From Chloroflexota bacterium (GTDB lineage Bacteria; Chloroflexota; Dehalococcoidia; GIF9; UBA5629), in contig VGOP01000011.1 of assembly GCA_016875875.1 (NCBI GenBank), forward strand, positions 1 through 61,496: a stretch of 61,496 nucleotides of DNA, given 5' to 3'. The first letter of the stretch is position 1, and every line of letters begins with the position of its first letter. Of this stretch, positions 29,177 to 61,292 are shown piece after piece. The translations under genes were made by a program, and so were the position numbers. Under the pieces are notes generated by a model. It made no database searches. It saw only the letters and a list, made by a program, of their open reading frames with translations, and had not been told where the DNA came from.

Positions 29177-29252
29177 TGGTGGGCGGTACTGGACTTGAAC
29201 CGGTGACCTCTGCGATGTCAACGCAGCGCTCTAACCACTGAGCTAACCGCCC
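29177..29252 (-). tRNA. tRNA-Val (GAC)
   Basis: Complete cloverleaf on the minus strand: acceptor GGGCGGT/ACCGCCC, D arm GCTCAGTGGTTAGAGC, anticodon arm CTGCG-TTGACAT-CGCAG with anticodon GAC, T arm ACCGG-TTCAAGT-CCAGT with imperfect pairing, discriminator A, and encoded CCA. The accessory block 24.5-29.1 kb abuts its 3' end. Confidence 0.95.
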
Positions 29253-33809: not shown

Positions 33810-33882
<73 letters not shown>

Positions 33883-36370: not shown

Positions 36371-36458
36371 GCCGAAGTGGCGGAATGGTAGACGCGGCAG
36401 TCTCAAAAACTGTTGAGGGGCAACTCTCGTGTCGGTTCGAATCCGACCTTCGGCACCA
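36371..36458 (+). tRNA. tRNA-Leu (CAA)
   Basis: Class II tRNA with long variable arm: acceptor GCCGAAG/CTTCGGC, anticodon arm GCAGT-CTCAAAA-ACTGT with anticodon CAA, variable stem GAGGGGCAACTC, T arm GTCGG-TTCGAAT-CCGAC, discriminator A and encoded CCA. It lies 10 bases before tRNA-Gln. Confidence 0.95.
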
Positions 36459-36468
36459 GGCTTATAAA

Positions 36469-36542
36469 TGCCGAGTTGTGTAGTGGTAGCACAGGGGACT
36501 TTGGATCCCTTAGCCCAGGTTCGAATCCTGGCTCGGCAGCCA
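36469..36542 (+). tRNA. tRNA-Gln (TTG)
   Basis: Acceptor TGCCGAG/CTCGGCA, anticodon arm GGGGA-CTTTGGA-TCCCT with anticodon TTG, T arm CCCAGG-TTCGAAT-CCTGG, discriminator G and encoded CCA. It forms a pair with the preceding tRNA-Leu. Confidence 0.95.
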
Positions 36543-48743: not shown

Positions 48744-49418
48744 TTAAGTTATTAGCGCTTTCAGCTTGTCTCGAAGATCTTTGCCGCCCCATATAACACA
48801 TAGGAGAAGATGCTGGTCTTCAGGGTACTCTGTCACATGTATCCCCTTCTTTTTGTTGTTTGGAGTATTTCGTGGCCATGCCTGAAAAATCTTGTTCATC
48901 TTGGGAGTGATGGATGGGTCCGAACATGCGCATCTCTCTAATTTGAGCATTATCTCAAGGGTTGCGATATTGCTGTTAGCATCAATGGCATCACGCCAAT
49001 CATTGCCTAACAAGATTTCACCATATTCCAGAAGATCACAAAAGGCTTCTACGCAGTTGCGTTGCTGTACACTCAGATCAAGCAGCTTGGTCGAATGAAA
49101 GAAATCATTGCGCCGCTCACGCCGATTCGCCATTGCCTCTTGTAACTCCTTTACGCGTGATAACTGTGCCGGGGTTTTTGTGCTTACAATCCTTTCCACC
49201 TCCAGTAATATGGCATGATAGTTCTTATAACGACCACCAGGATTCACATCTGTCCATGAAGCGTCATCTGTCATAAGGAAGAATTTTGAAACTAGTTCAG
49301 AATAGTCATCGCAGAGAATAAATGCAGTCTTTAGATATTGGCCACCCGTTCGTCCAGTGTAGTAAATTTCAACCCCGGCGCAGATTTCATCCATTAGATA
49401 GGCCAGTGCTTGGTTCAT
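48744..49418 (-). CDS. HEPN-like protein in the restriction-modification operon
   Basis: 224 helical residues. The motif RRERRNDFFH places Arg103, Asn104 and His108 in the R-N-x3-H pattern of HEPN ribonucleases. The start ATG overlaps the hsdS stop by one base (TAATG), so it is the third gene of the operon. HEPN proteins are frequent RNA-cleaving toxins or effectors in defence islands. Whether it is a toxin, a regulator or an inactive scaffold cannot be told. Confidence 0.55.
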   Translation of the reverse strand: MNQALAYLMDEICAGVEIYYTGRTGGQYLKTAFILCDDYSELVSKFFLMTDDASWTDVNPGGRYKNYHAILLEVERIVSTKTPAQLSRVKELQEAMANRRERRNDFFHSTKLLDLSVQQRNCVEAFCDLLEYGEILLGNDWRDAIDANSNIATLEIMLKLERCACSDPSITPKMNKIFQAWPRNTPNNKKKGIHVTEYPEDQHLLLCVIWGGKDLRDKLKALIT

Positions 49419-50872
49419 TATGTCACCTCTTCACCAAGTAGTCTGGCTTCAAATCGCGTCTTGGCCGCTTCCCATTCAGTCTCCGCTTCATTGCGCAGTT
49501 GCCTAGCTTCCTTACGACGGTGATTCAACTCATCCACAATCTCAAGTTGGATTTTCAGTCCAGGAACAGGTACACGTAATGCCGAAAGAGTCTCCGTATT
49601 AATACCCGCCTGATTTACAAAATTAGTCGCTATTAGTCCCAGATAGCCAGTTGATCGGATAGCATTAAAGAAAGATGTAAGATACCACGGTTCTACAAGC
49701 GAGCGATTAACGACCAGCCGCGTGATATGATTAGAGCAGCAGCAAAGACGTTCAGATTCAAATACCGCACTTTTGCCAACCCATTCTGTGGAATTTGTAT
49801 TATTGAAGAGAACTTCGTTAGGTTGGATAACATCACTTTGGCTTACACTATTCCTAGGGACGTATTTTGTTCCTTCGAAGGAGAGTTCGCCCTTTGCAGA
49901 GATATTGATAGGACGGATATGTGGAATGCCTTTGGTTTCATCAAAGGCTTGCATCTCACGACCGGCTGCAAAACCCGTCGTGATAGCGGAACAAACATCA
50001 GAGATTGACAAAACCTGATAACCACTTTGCTCAATAGACATACGCAATTCCTTGAATTTCGGTGAATGGAAATCTGGGTCACACCGATTAGTCAAGTCGC
50101 GAAAGCGTGCGGCGAAGCAGTATGGGTATTTTTCTCTTCTTGGCATTAAACCAAGTCGTTCGAGTAAAAAAGCATCGAGACCAGATAACAGAGCATCGGC
50201 CCGCTTGAGTTTGAGCCGCCGCGACTCACGCGCCTTCTCCATCTCTGCAACCATTTCTCTTTGAACCGGGCCCAGAGGATGAGGAATAACTAACGCCTCA
50301 ACATCGGGTTTCGAGGTGCTTGGGCGAACAGATACAACATTCCAAGTCCTCTGTATCTGCTCCTGAACGAGTCTACTGCCTAACACTTCAAAGAGATATC
50401 TCTGGTTCGTGCCAGACTTGGCTCGTATTGCAAAACAAAATGAAGCATATAGACTCCCATTCAATTCTTTGGGAACAATTGCGACTTTGCCTGTGGTGTT
50501 GCCACATTGAACCATGATTATGTCGTCTGTTTTGACTCTTTTTGTCGACTGGCTGGCGGTCGCAAAAGGGATATACTTCACATCCGTAAGATCAATATCA
50601 CCAGATGGTAATATGTTGGTCACGCGGATGAACGGCTCACCCGCTTGCGCGTCTAACGCATAGTCCTCGGTTGGCATGAGACCATAATCGAGGTGGTCAA
50701 CAATGTCTTTGAGGGATTTAATTCCGTATGGAGAGGATGCAAGTGCTCTTTCAAGAGCAAGGAATCGCTCCTGATGGTAGTGAGGGTCAAAACGGTTGGC
50801 CTGCAATGCATCGCGAAGATAGATTGCGTAAGTGAGTCTGATCCCAGAGCCTTCCTCTCCCCGATCACACAA
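49418..50872 (-). CDS. hsdS: Type I-like specificity subunit (HsdS) with two target-recognition domains
   Basis: 484 residues with the usual duplicated layout. The first half has FIRVTNILPSGDIDLTDVKYIP and a coiled spacer EMVAEMEKARESRRLKLKRADALL. The second half has HIRPINISAKGELSFEGTKYVP and EIVDELNHRRKEARQLRNEAE. Each half-site recognition domain reads one part of a split target. The start is uncertain (TTG at 50872 or further in); it lies about 33 bases after the methylase gene. It directs the fused methylase-nuclease upstream. Confidence 0.85.
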   Translation of the reverse strand: MCDRGEEGSGIRLTYAIYLRDALQANRFDPHYHQERFLALERALASSPYGIKSLKDIVDHLDYGLMPTEDYALDAQAGEPFIRVTNILPSGDIDLTDVKYIPFATASQSTKRVKTDDIIMVQCGNTTGKVAIVPKELNGSLYASFCFAIRAKSGTNQRYLFEVLGSRLVQEQIQRTWNVVSVRPSTSKPDVEALVIPHPLGPVQREMVAEMEKARESRRLKLKRADALLSGLDAFLLERLGLMPRREKYPYCFAARFRDLTNRCDPDFHSPKFKELRMSIEQSGYQVLSISDVCSAITTGFAAGREMQAFDETKGIPHIRPINISAKGELSFEGTKYVPRNSVSQSDVIQPNEVLFNNTNSTEWVGKSAVFESERLCCCSNHITRLVVNRSLVEPWYLTSFFNAIRSTGYLGLIATNFVNQAGINTETLSALRVPVPGLKIQLEIVDELNHRRKEARQLRNEAETEWEAAKTRFEARLLGEEVT

Positions 50873-50904
50873 GATGACTTTCAGAGCTGCTTGTGCGTCA
50901 GGGA

Positions 50905-52716
50905 TTACACGAAAAAAGGTTGTGATTTTTTTTCAAACTCCCGATATCGCCTTACCACTTCAGGTAATTGGTTCTCGCACGGCCGGCCGGTGGCGTCATA
51001 GCCTATCTTTTCGGGGGCTGCCATGAAGATGGCCTCGTCGTCCTTTGGTATTTCGTTTTCGGCGCGACGGCGGAGAAAAACAAGGCTAGCCTTGACCCCT
51101 GCACCAAAATGAGAGAAGGCAGTCTGGGGCAGGCTAACCACAGCAAGCAGTTGAAAACGCTCAAGCAGAAAGTCACGGACATATTGCAGCGAGGAGTTGG
51201 TGAGAATTCCGTCGGGCAGAACGATAGCAGCACGCCCTGTACCAGGCCTAAGAAACTGATGGACTCGCTCAATGAAGAGGATTTCGGTCTTCTGATTTTT
51301 ACGGGGCTTGAGCTTGCCATTAGCATCTTTTTGCTTGCCAAGTTCGAAATCCGTAAGGTATGGGCGTTCGGTAAGGGCAACTTGTGCTCCAAAAGGAGGA
51401 TTGGTCAGAATCAAGCTGAAGGAGTCAGTCTTGAAACCATTGTTGCCGGTAGTTTGGCGGATACGTTCAAAGCGTTCAAGGGCGTCCTCTCCACCGATGT
51501 TGCTGTGGCCATCATCGTGGAGAATCATATTCATTTTGGCGACGCGGGCAATCTCGTCGTTGATTTCAATGCCAAATAGATTTCTCTGGGCAAAGTCATG
51601 CCAGTGCGTATAGTGCTCTACACTATCAGGTTTATGATAGTCATCGGCTTCTCGACGCACATGATCGAGGGCATAAAGTAGAAAGCCGCCAGAGCCGCAG
51701 GCTGGATCAAGCACGATATCATTAGCTTTGGGGCGCGTCATTTCAACTGCAAAGTTGATAATCTCGCGCGGGGTAAAATATTGGCCGAAGTCACCCTTGA
51801 AGAAGCCATCCATAAACTGCTCGAAGGCAACGCCTTTGGTATCAAGGTCGGTCTTACTGAAGCTGATGGCTTCCATGTGAGAAACAAGCGTGCGCAGCGT
51901 AGCATCGTCTATCCGTATGGTGTCAGTGAAGACTTGCGGGTCCTTCTCCTTCGCCTGTTCATATATAGCCTTGATACGTTCGGCAAGCTTACGGCTTGGC
52001 TCATGTGTCTTTATTTGGAATTCGTAGGGCTCTCCCGTCTTACGTGGAGTTTTTTCATCCTGAATCTTAATGAAGAGTAATTTACAGAGTTCGCCAAATG
52101 CCATCGGTGGAGATAGCCGGCCACCACCCCATAGAGTCTGATGGCATTTCCTTATAGTGGCGATGAGAGTCTCCTTGCTTACAGGCTGAATATCATCTTT
52201 GGTGCCTTTGAAAAAGCGCCACTCCTCTGGTTTACCATATTGGCGTGGTAGGTCTGCAATTATATTGGCCTCGCGTTCAAGGACGCCATATTTTTCGCTG
52301 AAGTCGAGAAAGCGGCGCGTTTGACCGGCGACGACACCGACATACTGAGCGCGGAACTTGGCCCAGGTGCCGTTACCGCAAGCTTGCTCAACAGCTTGAG
52401 CAAATTCTGCGTCTGTTACGCCATCTCTTTTACATTCGATCACGGCGAAAGGGTGAATCCGCGCGTCGTCGAGGAAAACGACTAGATCGGCAGTGTCTTT
52501 AGGAGTACGATCGGGGACGATAACTTCGATGCCAATTCGAGCTGGTTCATACCCGTAGCGAAAGATTAGTTCCGCCCAGTATTCAGCTCGTACCTGTTCC
52601 TCTGGATCAGAATACCTCTCGGAGTGATTGACGGCAACATAGGTAATACGTTGTTTACTGCCTTCACCGGAAATAGTGGCATAGCCCTTTGCAAGTGCTT
52701 GTTCAAGATACATCAT
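50905..52716 (-). CDS. Fused restriction nuclease / N6-adenine methylase (type IIB/IIG-like)
   Basis: 603 residues from ATG 52716 behind GGAGG. Residues about 25-150 form a PD-(D/E)XK domain of the HsdR N-terminal type: DTADLVVFLDD with D77, then AVIECKRDG with E94 and K96. The rest is a type I methylase: helical N-terminal part, then DPACGSGGFLLYALDHV (AdoMet motif I) and LTNPPFGAQ (NPPF catalytic motif). No ATP-dependent helicase motor is present and no separate hsdR lies nearby. Nuclease and methylase on one chain with an HsdS partner resembles BcgI-type systems, which cut without ATP translocation. Confidence 0.8.
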   Translation of the reverse strand: MMYLEQALAKGYATISGEGSKQRITYVAVNHSERYSDPEEQVRAEYWAELIFRYGYEPARIGIEVIVPDRTPKDTADLVVFLDDARIHPFAVIECKRDGVTDAEFAQAVEQACGNGTWAKFRAQYVGVVAGQTRRFLDFSEKYGVLEREANIIADLPRQYGKPEEWRFFKGTKDDIQPVSKETLIATIRKCHQTLWGGGRLSPPMAFGELCKLLFIKIQDEKTPRKTGEPYEFQIKTHEPSRKLAERIKAIYEQAKEKDPQVFTDTIRIDDATLRTLVSHMEAISFSKTDLDTKGVAFEQFMDGFFKGDFGQYFTPREIINFAVEMTRPKANDIVLDPACGSGGFLLYALDHVRREADDYHKPDSVEHYTHWHDFAQRNLFGIEINDEIARVAKMNMILHDDGHSNIGGEDALERFERIRQTTGNNGFKTDSFSLILTNPPFGAQVALTERPYLTDFELGKQKDANGKLKPRKNQKTEILFIERVHQFLRPGTGRAAIVLPDGILTNSSLQYVRDFLLERFQLLAVVSLPQTAFSHFGAGVKASLVFLRRRAENEIPKDDEAIFMAAPEKIGYDATGRPCENQLPEVVRRYREFEKKSQPFFV

Positions 52717-52851
52717 TCTAACCTCCAACCCGCCGTTTTCACGATCAACCTGTTAGAAAAACGAGGGGAATCGTTTATTAATGGACCTGACCGAAATAGT
52801 TATACCACTTATTAAGTCAATTCACAAGCATTTGATTCGAGCCGCCTTCGG

Positions 52852-54578: not shown

Positions 54579-54607
54579 TTGACAATCGCATAAATAGAGT
54601 CTAGAAT
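54579..54607 (+). promoter_or_regulatory. Consensus promoter of candidate RNA 1
   Basis: TTGACA (54579-54584), 17 bases, TAGAAT (54602-54607). Transcription would start near 54614, about 75 bases before the terminator stem. Confidence 0.75.
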
Positions 54608-54613
54608 CAAAAT

Positions 54614-54733
54614 CAGCCGTAAGGGATAACCTTAGTAGCCTAAATATAGTCGTAGTATTGGTTCGAGGTCTGATGGGATGAATCAAGGGGCACCGGAATT
54701 TGCTGCTTAGCGGTGGTCGCCGGTGCCTTTTTT
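54614..54733 (+). ncRNA. Candidate structured RNA 1 (leader or small RNA) before the cyclase/ATPase gene
   Basis: About 120 nt from a consensus promoter to a strong terminator: GGCACCGG (54689-54696) pairs with CCGGTGCC (54720-54727), followed by TTTTTT. No ORF lies within. It aligns with candidate RNA 2 through GTAGC near the 5' end, AAGGGGCAC 50 bases later (49 in the other), and GCTG-TT-G-GG-GGT-GC inside the terminal hairpin. The downstream gene begins 57 bases after the T-run, so it could be a terminating leader (riboswitch-like) or an independent sRNA. Confidence 0.6.
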
Positions 54734-54789
54734 GTTTAAGTTGAGCGCTGCTGATCGCTCATCACAGCAGTTGACGGATGGTGTGTAAA

Positions 54790-57700
54790 ATGAAATGCCC
54801 GAAGTGCCAGTTTGAAAATCCGGAAGGGGCTAAGTTCTGCAACGGGTGCGGAAATAAACTTGAACTCGCCTGTCCACAATGCGGAAATATGAATCCGCCT
54901 AGCAGCAGATTCTGTAATGAATGCGGCCATGAACTGGCTGTACCCCCAGCACCACCACTCAAAGCCCTATCCTTTGACGAAAAGCTGGACAAGATACAGC
55001 GCTACCTTCCCGGCGACATTACCGAGAAGATACTGGCGCAGAGGGGCAAGATCGAGGGCGAGCGCCGGCAGGTCACGGTCATGTTCTGCGACGTTGAGGG
55101 GTTCACACCGCTTTCGGAGAAGCTTGGGGAGGATAAATTATACTCCCTCATCGACGAACTCTTCGAGATGATGATACACAAGGTCCACGAGTATGGCGGC
55201 ACGGTCAACAAGGGTACTGGCGATGGCATCATGGCGCTGTTCGGGACGCCCATCGCCTTAGAGGATGCGCCACAGCGGGCCATCCGTTCCGCCCTGGCCA
55301 TCCAGCGCGAGATGGCTAAATTCAGCGGCGCGCTACAGAAGGAGACTGCGGCGCCTTCGTTAAGGATGCGCATAGGCATCAACACCGGCCCCGTTGTCGT
55401 CGGCACGCTGGGAAACGACCTCAGGGTGGAGTTCACCGCAGTTGGAGATACGGTGAACCTGGCCTCCAGGATGGAGGGGCTTGCACAGCCGGGCACGGTC
55501 TATGTCACCGAGGGCACCTTCAAACTGGCCGAGGGCTTCTTCCGCTTCGAGGCGCTGGGTGAGAGGCAGGTCAAGGGGAAGGAGCAATTAGTCAAGGCGT
55601 ACCGTGTTATCGCACCCAGCACCAGCAGGACGAGGTTTGATGTCAGCGCCGAGCGTGGCCTGACTCCCTTTGTTGGTCGTCAGAAAGAGCTTGAGCTGTT
55701 GCTGGACGGCCTCGAGCGGGCCAAGGCAGGAAGAGGCCAGGCTTTCTCGATAATGGGCGAGGCCGGCGTGGGCAAATCCCGGCTGCTCTACGAGTTCAGG
55801 AAGGCAATAGGAAGTGAGGACGTGACACTGCTGGAGGGCAGGTGCCTGTCGTACAGCCAGAACGTGGCCTACCACCCGGTCATAGACCTGTTGAAGTCGA
55901 ACTTCGATGTCAGGGAAGGCGGCGAGGACTACAAAATCAGGGACAGGGTACAGCAAGGACTGAAGCAATTGGGAGTAGACGAAGCCTCCACTCTTCCATA
56001 TTTACTGGAGCTGCTGGGTGTCAAGGACAGCGGCATCGATAAGATACCCATGAGCCCGGAGGGCAGGAGGGAGCGAACGATGGATGCGGTAAAGCGAATC
56101 CCCCTGAAAGGTTCGGAGGTACGGCCGCTGGTTCTGGCCATCGAGGATCTACACTGGGCGGACAGAAGCTCCGAGGAGGCTATGAAGGACATGCTGGAGA
56201 GCATACCTGGAGCCAGGATCCTCCTCATATTCACATACCGGCCAGAGTTCGTGCACACCTGGGGCAGCCGGTCTTACCACAGCCAGGTGACCTTAAACCG
56301 GCTGTCCAACCGGGAGAGCCTGGCCATGCTCGCCAATCTCCTAGGCACAGAAGAGATAGAGACACAGCTTCAGGAGTTGGTCTTGGAGAAGACGGAGGGC
56401 GTCCCTTTCTTCATCGAGGAGTTCATAAAGTCGCTCAAAGACCTCAAGATAATCGAGAAAAAGGATAGTATCTACCGTCTACGCAAAGATATTCACGATG
56501 TAACCATACCGGGCACCATTCAGGATGTCATCATGGCCAGAGTGGACTCTCTGCCCGAGCCTGCCAAGGCGGTGCTTCAGAGAGGCTCGGCTATCGAGCG
56601 AGAGTTCGGCTTCGACTTGATAAGCAGGGTGTCAGGCTTATCTCAGCAGGAATTGCTGTCCCACCTGTCGGCGTTGAAGGATGCGGAGCTTATCTACGAG
56701 AGGGGGATATATCCCCGGTCGACCTACATCTTCAGGCATGCCCTGACCCGTGAGGTGGTTTACAACTCGATACTGGCGGCGAGGAAAAAGAAGCTTCACC
56801 TGGACATAGGCGATGCCATCGAGGAGATATATAAAGACAGCCCGGATGAGCATTACGAGGCGCTGGCCGCTCACTATATCACAGGTGAGCAATACGAGAA
56901 GGGTGCTGAGTATTGCCGGCTGGCGGCAAGGAAAGGTGAGAAAGCCGCCTCTCTTAATGATGCCATTGTCTATGGCGAGAAGAGAGTGTCCTGTCTGGAG
57001 AGGCTGCCGCGCAGCAGGGATGTGGAGAAACAGATAATCGATACTAGGGCAACGCTCGGGCTGTATTACGCTCAGATGAACCATTTTGTTAAGGCAAAGG
57101 AGGCGATTGAACCGGTAGTTGAGCTGGCCTTAAAGCGTGATCATAAGAGGCGGCTTGCTCAGATATATACCATAATGGGGGGATATAGCTATGCTATTGA
57201 TGAGGATTTCCCCAAGGCCTTCGAGTATCTGGAGGAGTCGCTAAAGCTAGGCGAAGAGTCAAATGATATGGTTTCCTTAGTCTTGTCGAGTTCTTGGATG
57301 GGAGGCGCTCGTGCTAACAACTGCGATTTTGACCAAGCCCTTACGAATTGGGAAAGAACTTTGGAGTTCAATTTGGCGACAAATAATCTCCCGGGAATGG
57401 CAGCGACAAAAAGTATCATGGCTCGGTGGCTTTATAGTATTCAAGGCAAATGTGACCTGGCTTATGACACCAGCAATGAAGCGTTGCGGCTGGCCGAAGA
57501 GAGCGGTGATACACTGTCAAAGGCACTAGGGCACACCAGTCAAGGTGTCGCATTTTATTTCAAGGGCTTTCTGGATGAGGCCGAGCCACATCTGCTGAAG
57601 GGCAGTGACTTCTGTGACAGGATCAACTTTTTGACGTGGGGCTCTCCTGCAAATCTCCATTTGGGCGAGCTCTACTTTGACAAGGGAGAATATCAAAAAT

Positions 57701-58191
57701 GTCAGGACCTTTGTGGTAAAACAATTTCGCTCATGGAAGGCAGATATGCATCCTCTGTGATTAATTTTTACAGATTAGCTTTAGCCCGGGCCAAAGTGCT
57801 GAACAATGAGAAAGGCGTTGACCTAGAATCGTTATACAAGTATGAGGCTAAGAACAAGTACAGATATCTTGATGGTTGGATAATACGATATATCGCAGAG
57901 ATACTGCTCAATATCGATGATCGGCACATTTCTGAGGCTGAAGAATGGGTTAAGAAAGCAATTGAAGCGGACAAGCGGAACGGCACGATGTGGGACCTGG
58001 GAATGGCTCATTCCCTCTATGCCGTGCTGCTGAAACGAAAAGGCGACCTGCCGGGAGCCAGGGAAAAGCTGAATAAGGCCATAGAAATCTACAAGGAATG
58101 CGGCGCCGACGGCTGGCTGAAAAAGGCACAGGCTGACCTGGCCGCGATTGAAAAGCCGACGCGCAAGCGCTCCCAGCAGACCAAAGGCTAG
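54790..58191 (+). CDS. Zinc-ribbon / class III nucleotide cyclase / AAA ATPase / TPR regulator
   Basis: 1133 residues from ATG 54790 (an in-frame ATG 12 bases earlier is possible; neither has a good ribosome site). Order: double zinc ribbon (CPKCQFENPEGAKFCNGCG; CPQCGNMNPPSSRFCNECG, residues 3-47); cyclase homology domain (MFCDVEGFTPLSEKLG, GTGDGIMALFG, AVGDTVNLASRMEGLA); AAA_16-type ATPase (FVGRQKELELLLDGL, GEAGVGKSRLL, LAIEDLHWADR); then about 500 residues of TPR-like helices. The metal-binding Asp of the cyclase is present (FCDVEG), so cAMP or cGMP synthesis is plausible. It resembles large signalling ATPases (LuxR/MalT-like without a DNA-binding end). Confidence 0.88.
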   Translation: MKCPKCQFENPEGAKFCNGCGNKLELACPQCGNMNPPSSRFCNECGHELAVPPAPPLKALSFDEKLDKIQRYLPGDITEKILAQRGKIEGERRQVTVMFCDVEGFTPLSEKLGEDKLYSLIDELFEMMIHKVHEYGGTVNKGTGDGIMALFGTPIALEDAPQRAIRSALAIQREMAKFSGALQKETAAPSLRMRIGINTGPVVVGTLGNDLRVEFTAVGDTVNLASRMEGLAQPGTVYVTEGTFKLAEGFFRFEALGERQVKGKEQLVKAYRVIAPSTSRTRFDVSAERGLTPFVGRQKELELLLDGLERAKAGRGQAFSIMGEAGVGKSRLLYEFRKAIGSEDVTLLEGRCLSYSQNVAYHPVIDLLKSNFDVREGGEDYKIRDRVQQGLKQLGVDEASTLPYLLELLGVKDSGIDKIPMSPEGRRERTMDAVKRIPLKGSEVRPLVLAIEDLHWADRSSEEAMKDMLESIPGARILLIFTYRPEFVHTWGSRSYHSQVTLNRLSNRESLAMLANLLGTEEIETQLQELVLEKTEGVPFFIEEFIKSLKDLKIIEKKDSIYRLRKDIHDVTIPGTIQDVIMARVDSLPEPAKAVLQRGSAIEREFGFDLISRVSGLSQQELLSHLSALKDAELIYERGIYPRSTYIFRHALTREVVYNSILAARKKKLHLDIGDAIEEIYKDSPDEHYEALAAHYITGEQYEKGAEYCRLAARKGEKAASLNDAIVYGEKRVSCLERLPRSRDVEKQIIDTRATLGLYYAQMNHFVKAKEAIEPVVELALKRDHKRRLAQIYTIMGGYSYAIDEDFPKAFEYLEESLKLGEESNDMVSLVLSSSWMGGARANNCDFDQALTNWERTLEFNLATNNLPGMAATKSIMARWLYSIQGKCDLAYDTSNEALRLAEESGDTLSKALGHTSQGVAFYFKGFLDEAEPHLLKGSDFCDRINFLTWGSPANLHLGELYFDKGEYQKCQDLCGKTISLMEGRYASSVINFYRLALARAKVLNNEKGVDLESLYKYEAKNKYRYLDGWIIRYIAEILLNIDDRHISEAEEWVKKAIEADKRNGTMWDLGMAHSLYAVLLKRKGDLPGAREKLNKAIEIYKECGADGWLKKAQADLAAIEKPTRKRSQQTKG

Positions 58192-58313
58192 AAGCCACCC
58201 CGAAACTCAGCGCTATCGAACCGAAATTCTCAGCAAGCCCACCTATGCAACAATAGTCCTAAATATATCGCCCGTTGCACAAACACTCAAAAGGTTCAAT
58301 GTCTCTTCATCTA

Positions 58314-58655
58314 CTATTTCTTTCCTAATGATGATACAAAACTTATCGAGGTCTCAAATATTTCTGTATCTTTCAGGTAAGTTTCCGGATTCTCTCGGTT
58401 TATTTGAATCCACTCTTTCATTTTTTCTCTCCCCATTGGTTGAAAATGAACTATCCCCTTTTTACCGATAAGCTCATTAGCTACGCCTTCTGGAACTTTT
58501 ACACCTACCCCCTCCTCATAAATACAGGCAAATAGTCTTTTATTGATGTAATAGGCAGGATAGCCAAACATTTTGCCAGAGACCACAATCGGATTCTTTA
58601 GCAAAATCGAGTCAACAGACCTTTTAATTTCAGGATTAAAATTTGCTTTTCTCAT
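58314..58655 (-). CDS. TfoX N-terminal-domain-like protein
   Basis: 113 residues. The TfoX/Sxy fold is suggested by VSGKMFGYPAYYINKRLFACIYEEGVGVKVP and VHFQPMGREKMKEWIQI. In proteobacteria Sxy/TfoX promotes competence gene expression. Single-domain copies elsewhere have no proven role. ATG after AGGATAACG. It is convergent with the cyclase gene. Confidence 0.75.
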   Translation of the reverse strand: MRKANFNPEIKRSVDSILLKNPIVVSGKMFGYPAYYINKRLFACIYEEGVGVKVPEGVANELIGKKGIVHFQPMGREKMKEWIQINRENPETYLKDTEIFETSISFVSSLGKK

Positions 58656-58967
58656 AACATCGTTATCCTTTCTTGAAAAATCAGTTGTATTCTAGAATCA
58701 ATTGTATTGAATTTGATAAGGATTCATTATTTTAAGACATCTGCAGATCCACATCACCTCGTATTGTATCTTATCCTAATGACAGCTGGGAAACTGATCA
58801 GGCACCTCATACGGCCCGATAGCCGCTTGGGTAATTTGCCAACTGCTTCGTTCACCCAAGTGAGAAGGTCCAGGTTTTGAGTAGAGGTAACAAAGTAGCG
58901 ATTTGTTACCATCTCTATTGCCAGTCTCCACTTAAATAACCCACATATTCGGCTGGATTTTCACTAG
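58656..58967. other. Gene-free stretch with two inverted repeats
   Basis: Contains a 7-bp inverted repeat (CTTGGGT/ACCCAAG) near 58828-58862 and the perfect hairpin listed separately. No ORF with a start and ribosome site. Possibly a remnant of mobile DNA; no family recognised. Confidence 0.35.
58886..58910. repeat. Perfect 9-bp inverted repeat, operator- or hairpin-like
   Basis: GGTAACAAA and TTTGTTACC flank a 7-base loop (GTAGCGA). It lies 58 bases before the promoter of candidate RNA 2 and could be a repressor site; no T-run follows. Confidence 0.5.
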
Positions 58968-58996
58968 TTGACAAGATTCCAAGGCAAGCCTATAGT
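58968..58996 (+). promoter_or_regulatory. Consensus promoter of candidate RNA 2
   Basis: TTGACA (58968-58973), 17 bases, TATAGT (58991-58996). Start of transcription near 59003. Confidence 0.75.
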
Positions 58997-59002
58997 TAAC
59001 GT

Positions 59003-59107
59003 GCGCAACATCTGTAGCGCCATAGAAATATACAGATTAGGGTGGGAAGATGAGAGTGAAGCAAGGGCACTAGCATCGCTGTTTGGAGGCGGTTGCGGGT
59101 TTTTTTA
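59003..59107 (+). ncRNA. Candidate structured RNA 2 (leader or small RNA) before the SDR gene
   Basis: About 105 nt, ending in an imperfect hairpin (GCATCGC / GCGGTTGC) and TTTTTTT. It shares with candidate RNA 1 the promoter layout, GTAGC near the 5' end, GATGnGA(T/G)(T/G)GAA(T/G)CAAGGG(G)CAC, and GCTG(C/T)TT(A/G)G(C/A)GG(T/C)GGT(C/T)GC(C/G)GG before the T-run. Most differences in the last block are transitions. The SDR gene starts 95 bases later. No coding potential is seen. Confidence 0.6.
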
Positions 59108-59201
59108 GGGCGAGCGCCGCACGAAAAAGGAGGTGATGCCTGTTGATAGAAGTAAGCATCAACTATACTCTGCATTGTCTTTAAGAAATAAGGAGGAAGC
59201 T

Positions 59202-59981
59202 ATGACTAAGACTGCAGTTATCACGGGGGCTACAAGCGGTATGGGCGCGGCTTATGCGAAAAGGCTTTCTGCTGATGGTTACGATTTGATTCTGGTTGGT
59301 AGAAGGAAGGAGATTATTCAGAGGCTTGCACGTGATTTGGCGGCTCAAAACCACGTTAAGGTGCAGGCAGTAATAGCTGAATTGTCCGATGATGATGATC
59401 TTCAGAAAGTCATTAGCGCCATCAAATCTGTTAACAACGTGGAGGTATTGATCAACAATGCCGGCTATTATATTAGGAGAACTTTTGATGAGATGGATGT
59501 ATCGGACTGTGAAAAAATGGTTAGAGTGCACGAATTGGCTCCCATGAGACTCATATCTACAGTAATCCAAAATATGATCAAGGCTGGAAAGGGAACTATC
59601 ATCAACGTCTCTTCTGCTGCAGCATATTTGCCTCAATACGGGGGATCTATCTACGTTGGAACAAAGGCTTTCCTCATACTGTTTACAGAATCTCTGCATA
59701 TGGAGTTAAGGGATAAAGGCATCAAAGTTCAGGTACTGTGTCCTTCATTTGTGGACACCGATTTCTATCGATTCACAACCGCGGAGATAAAGAATAAGTT
59801 AATTTCAAGGGATCCCAGAAAATGGTCCCCTGAGGCAGTAGTAGATTTTTCCTTGAAGAGCTTAAAAAAGAACCAATCTATATGCATACCCGGATACGGC
59901 TATAAAGCCATGTATGGGCTGATGTCAATATTGCCAAGAAACACGGTTTATAATATATCAAAGAGACTGTTCGAATTTTGA
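59202..59981 (+). CDS. Short-chain dehydrogenase/reductase
   Basis: 259 residues from ATG 59202 behind AAGGAGG (the frame is open 69 bases further up). Classical SDR: cofactor motif TGATSGMG, LVGRR (Arg suggests NADP preference), INNAG, and catalytic INVSSAAAY with YVGTK (YxxxK). The end HMELRDKGIKVQVLCPSFVDTDF is typical of bacterial SDRs acting on hydroxyacyl, steroid or fatty aldehyde substrates. The substrate is unknown. It follows candidate RNA 2. Confidence 0.9.
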   Translation: MTKTAVITGATSGMGAAYAKRLSADGYDLILVGRRKEIIQRLARDLAAQNHVKVQAVIAELSDDDDLQKVISAIKSVNNVEVLINNAGYYIRRTFDEMDVSDCEKMVRVHELAPMRLISTVIQNMIKAGKGTIINVSSAAAYLPQYGGSIYVGTKAFLILFTESLHMELRDKGIKVQVLCPSFVDTDFYRFTTAEIKNKLISRDPRKWSPEAVVDFSLKSLKKNQSICIPGYGYKAMYGLMSILPRNTVYNISKRLFEF

Positions 59982-60212: not shown

Positions 60213-61292
60213 TTATGAGCTCGCTAAGGCAATTGAAAGGCGGCTCCGGTTTGTATCACATAACTCAGATGGCACATACGATCTACCTTCTTTAAGCACA
60301 TGGTAAACCAGTTTTAGCATCCACCTGGCCATTATCACCTTGGCTACATTTGCCTTCTTAATTTTTCTCAGGGCATTAAGCCGTTGTCTTATTCCTACAT
60401 CAGCGTAAGATGCCGGCACTACAGCCTCGACCAATGCCCACTGCAGCCACCGATTTCCTTCCAGGATCATTTTCCCATGATATGTCTTGCCACCTGATGA
60501 GTGAGTTGAAGGTACCAAGCCGGCATAAGAACATAACTTTGATGGTGATTTGAAGCGATCAATGCCGTCTATCTCAGTGCTGATGAGTACCGCCAGTGTT
60601 TTCCCTATTCCAGGAATAGTGGAAAGTAGCTGGGCATCCTTGTCTTTCTTGTATATCTCCTCAACCATCTGGTTGCTCGCAGATATCTCAAAGCTAAGCT
60701 GCTCAATAAGTCTCATAGACGATTCAAATATCCTCTTATCTTCTTCTACTGGCCATTCCAACGACTTAAGCCATGCCACGCCATTCTCACCCTTTCCTCT
60801 TTTTGAGAACAGATTCTTAGGCTTCGATTCTTCAAGAGACGGTGATAGCAGCCGGTTGTTCACCAGATCGTTTACTTTATTTTTAACCCTGGTCCTCATT
60901 GCTACCATGAACGCTCTGTGCCTGATTACCTTTTGTTTGATGCGGTTGTCGGCTTCTCTTAAATGAGCCTGGGGAATCAAATCAGCCTTTAATAATTGGG
61001 CTAGAGTTCGAGAATCGATAGCATCGGTCTTAATCTTTGCGGAAGCGATAGCCTTTATCTTCAACGGATGAGCCAATATTACCTCATCGACGAGATCCTT
61101 AGCCAACTCATAGGTCCTGGACCAATTCCAGCATGACTCTATCACCATCTTGGTATCACGCCTGCTGCCGATGAAAGACTTAAATTCCTCCTTTTTGTGG
61201 GCTAATTTCTTCGATCTTATTTCTCCTGTATCCGAGTCAATCAATGTGGCGAAGTCGTATTGCTTGTGACAGTCCAGTCCAATGTACTTCAT
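60213..61292 (-). CDS. IS110-family (DEDD) transposase
   Basis: 359 residues, ATG behind AAAAGGAGGTG. RuvC-like DEDD domain: YIGLDCHKQY (first Asp), MVIESCWNWSRTYE (Glu), IKTDAIDSRTLAQLL (last two Asp). The C-terminal Transposase_20 domain has LLSTIPGIGKTLAVLISTEIDG, KLCSYAGLVPSTHSSGGK with the likely catalytic Ser region, and RWLQWALVEA. Intact length suggests an active enzyme. Confidence 0.95.
   Translation of the reverse strand: MKYIGLDCHKQYDFATLIDSDTGEIRSKKLAHKKEEFKSFIGSRRDTKMVIESCWNWSRTYELAKDLVDEVILAHPLKIKAIASAKIKTDAIDSRTLAQLLKADLIPQAHLREADNRIKQKVIRHRAFMVAMRTRVKNKVNDLVNNRLLSPSLEESKPKNLFSKRGKGENGVAWLKSLEWPVEEDKRIFESSMRLIEQLSFEISASNQMVEEIYKKDKDAQLLSTIPGIGKTLAVLISTEIDGIDRFKSPSKLCSYAGLVPSTHSSGGKTYHGKMILEGNRWLQWALVEAVVPASYADVGIRQRLNALRKIKKANVAKVIMARWMLKLVYHVLKEGRSYVPSELCDTNRSRLSIALASS

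Follow-up and report, generated by a model that had tools for sequence, protein, structure and literature searches.

A dispersed family of promoter-leader-terminator cassettes in Dehalococcoidia and its possible control by ribosomes on minimal upstream reading frames

The DNA analysed here, called the window below, is the 61,496-nt stretch of contig VGOP01000011.1 (assembly GCA_016875875.1) of a Chloroflexota bacterium of the class Dehalococcoidia. It contains two homologous cassettes in front of unrelated genes, and both lie exactly where an earlier note, made from the letters of the window alone, had placed them. The cassettes belong to an undescribed family of Dehalococcoidia. A unit spans ~150–160 bp and combines a sigma70-type promoter, a ~110–120 nt leader RNA and an intrinsic terminator 20–150 nt 5' of a gene. 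We propose, with moderate confidence, that a ribosome on a minimal upstream open reading frame (uORF) in the leader would cover the 5' arm of the terminator and so allow read-through into the gene. The sequence features described below are observations; from them we infer that the uORF is translated, in which direction this acts and what physiological signal is read.

The family was searched with two covariance models, R1 for the 3' module and R2 for the whole leader (49 training sequences). Most searched genomes were metagenome-assembled genomes (MAGs), model E-values are rough, and copy counts from the large searches are lower bounds. Of 393 sampled Dehalococcoidia genomes, 28 contain the element according to R1 (E <= 0.1) and at least 23 according to R2 (E <= 0.001, strict filters). 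Across a sample of the phylum, R2 was positive for three of 301 genomes, all three from the class of the window. Up to 34 copies occur per genome (DUER01, isolate S120), and 11 each in single-contig G287 and CP070810.1. When about 85,000 species genomes were scanned for an exact pattern, 15 stretches matched, 14 of them from MAGs of Dehalococcoidia and one from a MAG that carries the label ‘candidate division B38’; the copy in the latter (L123, NJBL01000100.1) precedes a gene for a GYD-domain protein and represents either transfer or a mis-binned contig. The same pattern had 0 matches in IMG/VR, and a viral origin was therefore dropped. Rfam, at the gathering score, recognised only four tRNAs in the window and left the element unmatched, and in 29 loci, nearly all with the element, it gave no match to the element even with E values up to 1 admitted. 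Apart from tRNAs and chance matches below threshold, these loci yielded only a separate c-di-GMP-II riboswitch located upstream in L027, so that identity with a known Rfam family was rejected. R2 can be used to annotate such leaders in Dehalococcoidia MAGs.

The likeness of the two window copies, first noticed from a pairwise alignment, is real, as each copy alone retrieves homologues in relatives. Copy 1 found a cassette in another genus of the bacterial family (G009) with 85% identity over 155 nt (E 5.6e-42), and copy 2 found 3' halves that were 82% and 81% identical in two genomes of the same genus (E 3.4e-10 and 6.4e-8). R2 scores copy 1 at E 5.1e-10 and copy 2 at E 7.1e-6. These scores are partly circular since both copies are among the 49 training sequences, which does not apply to the single-copy searches.

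The consensus of 40 aligned cassettes reads TTGACA-17-GGaCTAnAcT, AACATATGAAATAACCTTAAAA, TTGGTTTAGGGG, a G-rich run resembling a Shine–Dalgarno (SD) sequence, GGGATGAAACAAGGGCAC, the hairpin GGGCACTGGAAYCGCT...GCGGTKGCTGGTGCCC and a run of T's. Many copies, including copy 1 of the window, have a GTAGTGCTGGTTTAGGAG-like sequence ahead of the SD. In the hairpin, 92% of cells are paired over 49 leaders and 8 of 15 pairs have changed on both sides, which was equalled in 0–1 of 500 shuffles, and every slid control was far lower in pairing. These counts lean toward the proposed structure because the sequences were partly gathered by a model holding it. The hairpin has a folding z of -4.4, and the sequence of its upper part is conserved as well (GGAAYCGCU...GCGGUKGC with a bulged G). 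Covariation thus supports the hairpin as a predicted intrinsic terminator. The earlier note had named a covariance-model search as the check on its idea of an undescribed leader family, and this search yielded both further homologues and covariation; together with the placement just 5' of genes and the missing Rfam match they bear the idea out. Several leaders have an additional or alternative promoter ahead, with an upstream motif CACTTTRTGATGAARAAC before TATTGACATTTAT (L169 and L128, DUER01). A hairpin-only copy lies at the stop codon of a gene with a full leader in front (L128:645-713, DUER01000035), so that the hairpin occurs on both flanks of this gene.

The 5' part of the leader behaves differently from the hairpin. 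RNAalifold found no conserved structure there (energy 0), this part was not more stable than shuffled sequences (folding z -0.11+-0.13), and duplex energies between leader and terminator 5' arm equalled those of shuffles (mean z 0.01), which gives no sign of antiterminator pairing. Therefore, occupancy of the leader is the sole thing left that could disrupt the hairpin.

The position of the cassettes relative to genes, established with a home-made ORF caller, is that of 5' leaders. Of 104 copies, 79 are followed by an open reading frame (ORF) on the same strand and 22 by one on the opposite strand, and three have none behind them; the ORF starts within 300 nt for 71 copies, and the median distance is 56 nt. 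By contrast, the orientation of the upstream gene is near random (55 same, 41 opposite). The downstream genes have good SDs, many of them 20–60 nt past the T-run, which leaves little room for a further promoter. The predicted products include a cyclase-ATPase, short-chain dehydrogenase (SDR), lipoproteins, TPR, cNMP-binding, NMT1-like, DUF1353 and RDD proteins, as well as glycosyltransferase-like proteins, a permease, transglutaminase, LamG, NACHT/DUF4062 and GYD proteins, aldo-keto reductase and FAD enzymes, and no common metabolic theme was found among them. About ten copies with a long spacer have a second motif, AAGGAGGTGRTGCCTATG (a strong SD plus a tiny ORF), between terminator and gene (window 59126-59146, L120, L101, L079, L084, L128, L125, L123 and L027).

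Just ahead of the hairpin the leaders contain a recurrent ATG. It is located 5–20 nt upstream of the hairpin in 44 of 49 leaders, compared to 18.6+-3.4 in shuffles (maximum 31 in 2000 trials, a type of test that is inflated by related sequences). Distances to the hairpin peak at 9–10 and 14–15 nt, an SD-like sequence usually precedes, and GTG or TTG takes the place of ATG in a few leaders. Many of the uORFs have only 2–10 codons with a stop ahead of or inside the hairpin (MK*, MKQGH*, MKQGHWNR*). Frames, lengths and peptides vary, and neither a peptide nor particular codons are conserved over the leaders. The leaders thus resemble attenuator leaders in two respects: an intrinsic terminator stands between promoter and same-strand gene, and a short ORF, with SD and start codon 9–16 nt ahead of the hairpin, overlaps or abuts this terminator.

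In the proposed mechanism, RNA polymerase would by default halt at the leader terminator. Once a ribosome, as 30S or as 70S, sat on the minimal uORF, its footprint would extend over the 5' arm, the hairpin could not close, and the polymerase would continue into the gene. The toeprint of a 30S subunit lies at +16 from the A of the AUG (PMC9226507), and with the spacing of the leader AUG such a footprint would reach the 5' arm. When copy 1 is blocked up to +16, the computed residual fold is -7.7 kcal/mol compared to -26.6 kcal/mol for the free hairpin. The stop codon of the uORF mostly falls within the 5' arm or the loop, so that a translating ribosome would still cover this arm. Given the variable peptide, the leader would read how fast translation initiates or proceeds through early elongation, and not one specific amino acid. 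A precedent exists in Escherichia coli, where shifting a stop codon to 5 bp upstream of an intrinsic terminator reduced termination from ~90% to <10% and deletion of the ribosome-binding site abolished the effect (PMC4824070).

The features of the two window copies, all on the forward strand, are as follows.
54579-54607, + strand: promoter of copy 1, TTGACA (54579-54584), 17 nt spacer and TAGAAT (54602-54607); from the sequence and the family consensus in 40 aligned cassettes
54614..54733, + strand: leader RNA of copy 1 up to the T-run, with a putative start ~7 nt past the -10; homologous to 48 other leaders, R2 E 5.1e-10
54649-54668, + strand: family motif GTCGTAGTATTGGTTCGAGG in the copy 1 leader; homologous to other leaders
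54665-54669, + strand: SD-like GAGGT of copy 1; sequence
54673-54681, + strand: candidate minimal uORF of copy 1, ATG GGA TGA; sequence and uORF statistics over 49 leaders
54678-54710, + strand: candidate second uORF of copy 1, ATG AAT CAA GGG GCA CCG GAA TTT GCT GCT TAG (10 codons); sequence
54685-54733, + strand: predicted intrinsic terminator of copy 1, a 43-nt conserved hairpin (54685-54727) and T6 (54728-54733); -26.6 kcal/mol, covariation over 49 leaders
54790..58191, + strand: gene behind copy 1, encoding zinc ribbons, a class III adenylate/guanylate cyclase, an AAA_16 ATPase and a MalT-like TPR region (Pfam); start 54790 set from similarity to homologues
58968-58996, + strand: promoter of copy 2, TTGACA (58968-58973), 17 nt spacer and TATAGT (58991-58996); sequence
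59003..59106, + strand: leader RNA of copy 2, putative start; R2 E 7.1e-6 and alignments
59006-59019, + strand: CAACATCTGTAGCG in the copy 2 leader, counterpart of the family's CCAACATRTGAAA; alignments
59040-59047, + strand: SD-like GGGTGGGA of copy 2; sequence
59050-59073, + strand: candidate uORF of copy 2, ATG AGA GTG AAG CAA GGG CAC TAG (7 codons); sequence and uORF statistics
59063-59106, + strand: terminator-like hairpin of copy 2 (59063-59099) and T7 (59100-59106), outer 3' arm degenerate; -11.2 to -11.3 kcal/mol
59126..59146, + strand: second motif AAAGGAGGTGATGCCTGTTGA between the copy 2 terminator and the gene; resembles AAGGAGGTGRTGCCTATG
59202..59981, + strand: gene behind copy 2, SDR (Pfam adh_short, E 3.4e-44), with SD AAGGAGG at 59190-59196

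The stretches of 105–120 nt between promoter and terminator are not free of ORFs, as had been assumed at first, since each has a very short ORF that enters the hairpin (10 and 7 codons), together with an SD-like sequence. Likewise, a hairpin with a T-run had been noted for both copies, which is correct for copy 1 and only partly so for copy 2. Copy 2 is without the usual outer 3' arm TGGTGCCC and therefore has the weakest hairpin among the 49 compared (-11.3 versus a median folding energy of -24.5 kcal/mol), and it may be decaying. In L003 (G025:C94) the promoter region of copy 1 and the first 66 nt of the cassette are kept (76%) with no module found behind, so that this locus has possibly lost its leader.

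Several points weigh against gating by ribosomes. Five of the 49 leaders have no ATG at the expected place, and of the 101 copies followed by an ORF, 22 have it on the opposite strand. The weak terminator of window copy 2 may leave this copy constitutive. The conserved block around the ATG is in fact GATGA, in which GAT (38) and TGA (40) are nearly as frequent as ATG (44), and it is possible that this pentamer has a role other than start codon. A kink-turn or box C/D reading of GATGA is not supported, since either A or G can follow ATG and a partner box was not recognised. As GAT and TGA are also enriched and the shuffle test ignores relatedness, the case for ATG is strong and yet no proof of translation. 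Lastly, the upper hairpin and AACATATGAAATAACCTTAAAA are conserved beyond the need of occlusion, which suggests a specific binder.

It is this surplus of conservation that makes an RNA-binding protein the main rival explanation. Such a trans-acting protein would read the upper hairpin and/or the single-stranded AACAUAUGAAAUAACCUUAAAA and control termination of the whole regulon. The helix and the 5' segment are conserved in sequence across families of the class, and the many copies before unrelated genes in one genome suit a dedicated regulator, but no candidate protein was found and the recurrent SD and AUG would be left unexplained, so that we regard this explanation as possible though rather unlikely. 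Each of 20 genomes, some with and some without the element, encodes a single NusG-domain protein, thus a NusG paralogue (LoaP or RfaH type) is not indicated and antitermination by such a paralogue was rejected. A search for ANTAR found nothing, but control genomes were equally empty, which makes it uninformative. A ligand-binding riboswitch, as hinted at by the earlier note, would have its aptamer in the 5' part of the leader. The terminator and the conserved 5' sequence of the leaders fit this, and one relative does have a true c-di-GMP-II riboswitch before the same hairpin. However, conserved 5' sequence that comes with neither conserved structure nor antiterminator pairing makes a riboswitch unlikely, and since the downstream genes share no pathway either and Rfam matches neither the element at gathering nor the module at E up to 1, we set it aside as highly improbable.

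The other two explanations are a stand-alone RNA and a mobile repeat. If the family were a stand-alone small RNA (sRNA), the downstream genes would be bystanders with their own promoters. The discrete unit from promoter to terminator and the 22 of 101 copies that have no same-strand gene downstream are consistent with this, but not the spacing and orientation to genes, nor the little space for another promoter ahead of the gene SDs. The cassettes are indeed multi-copy, as had been suggested, but their position marks them as 5' leaders, and a free sRNA was rejected as very unlikely. A dispersed mobile repeat, like a miniature inverted-repeat transposable element or a REPIN, could carry promoter and terminator by chance. 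In favour of this are the patchy distribution, sharp unit ends, unrelated flanks, up to 90% identity within genomes, and a nearest neighbour in the same genome for 49 of 70 copies (10.5 expected by chance). No terminal inverted repeats were noticed by eye (no dedicated search was made), and a transposase was neither found nor sought. Random insertion would give either orientation, but three-quarters of the copies point toward a gene within a narrow range of distances, and the hairpin covaries. A repeat with merely incidental regulation therefore seems improbable. The related idea of a decayed insertion element holds for the dispersal within genomes, which resembles that of a mobile element, and not for the hairpin, which is kept intact in most copies. 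Integron attC sites were considered because genes look shuffled at the hairpin, and were rejected since the hairpin ends have no RYYYAAC/GTTRRRY boxes (by eye).

Besides the proposed gating by ribosomes, the comparisons point to a family that is a dispersed, modular cassette whose upstream modules were exchanged at the hairpin junction, once for a c-di-GMP-II riboswitch. Cassettes of one genome are up to 90% identical while their flanks are at background, and identity drops within 2–3 nt of the -35 and ~3 nt past the T-run. L084 (G417) and L079 (G349) agree in the gene (94% identity) and in the 3' part of the hairpin, with promoters and leaders of different subtypes. Conversely, L162 and L164 (CP070810) share upstream sequence and leader, and the likeness stops at the terminator with different sequence behind. 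In this pair (L162:9200-9541 and L164:2240-2618) about 200 bp upstream are 99% identical and the leaders only ~82%, which marks a separate, younger repeat. The proteins encoded behind L120 and L027 are 61% identical and their DNA is common from hairpin to gene, but L120 has a normal leader and L027 a c-di-GMP-II riboswitch instead (RF01786, 55.4 bits), with an eroded T-run. This riboswitch is located directly 5' of the family hairpin, before a gene for 98 amino acids (L027:1366-1450, G009:C114); the window leaders are not matched by RF01786 and have no aptamer structure. A homologue of the cyclase gene in G037, 70% identical and possibly at another genomic site, has no leader, and no orthologous SDR locus for an empty-site comparison of copy 2 was found among relatives. 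The dispersal may have come about by transposition, by gene conversion or by recombination between homologous repeats. Putative mobile promoters are likewise short dispersed non-coding units.

Spread and modular exchange of the cassettes in Dehalococcoidia genomes would place unrelated genes under one common gate. We tentatively suggest, as a broader and doubtful interpretation, a portable cassette of promoter and translation-sensing attenuator that disperses as a precise unit through Dehalococcoidia and couples unrelated genes to growth or translation through a single gate, with the hairpin as recombination junction for upstream sensors (own leader, other promoters, c-di-GMP-II riboswitch) and downstream genes. 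If true, a genome-wide regulon would have arisen from copying one promoter-attenuator unit before many genes and not from a transcription factor, and this in a class whose members have small genomes, are mostly uncultured and are poorly understood in their gene regulation. The cassettes would also provide a case in which the gating of an intrinsic terminator by translation initiation can be tested, and a series of natural exchanges of sensors on a single expression platform.

Among published natural systems, uORFC-39-1, the uORF candidate of fthC in Streptococcus and a proposed sensor of initiation speed, comes closest (PMC11109978). It has in common with the cassettes an SD-like purine run, a putative AUG, a uORF stop within a hairpin and a leader that ends in a terminator (PMC11109978). 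However, it concerns one gene in one genus and has three hairpins, whereas the Dehalococcoidia cassettes have one hairpin, precede many unrelated genes in another phylum and include the promoter in the conserved unit. The vmlR-type attenuators of Bacillus subtilis also have a minimal uORF with SD, and the position of the ribosome decides on intrinsic termination (PMC9226507), as is proposed for the cassettes. They use antiterminator and anti-antiterminator hairpins (PMC9226507), but no antiterminator pairing was found in the cassettes and, unlike vmlR, no resistance genes were recognised behind their leaders. In the tR2 reporter of E. coli, termination is similarly blocked when a ribosome sits at a stop codon some few nt ahead of the terminator, but this is a synthetic construct and no natural regulon (PMC4824070). 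REPINs (PMC8049555) are similar as short dispersed non-coding units that are homogenised or amplified within a genome; the cassettes differ in that they show no REP doublet and no demonstrated RAYT linkage, and consist of a full promoter-leader-terminator placed as 5' leader. The rdhA motif of Dehalococcoides is described as lying upstream of reductive dehalogenase genes, unlike the cassette family (PMC11109978).

Genes for specificity and methylase subunits of type I restriction-modification and for an IS110-like transposase flank the cassette region of the window (49418-52728 and 60213-61292; translations, by eye), and this region may be a genomic island. The tRNA genes recognised by Rfam (29180-29252, 33810-33882, 36371-36455 and 36469-36539) are unrelated to the cassettes.

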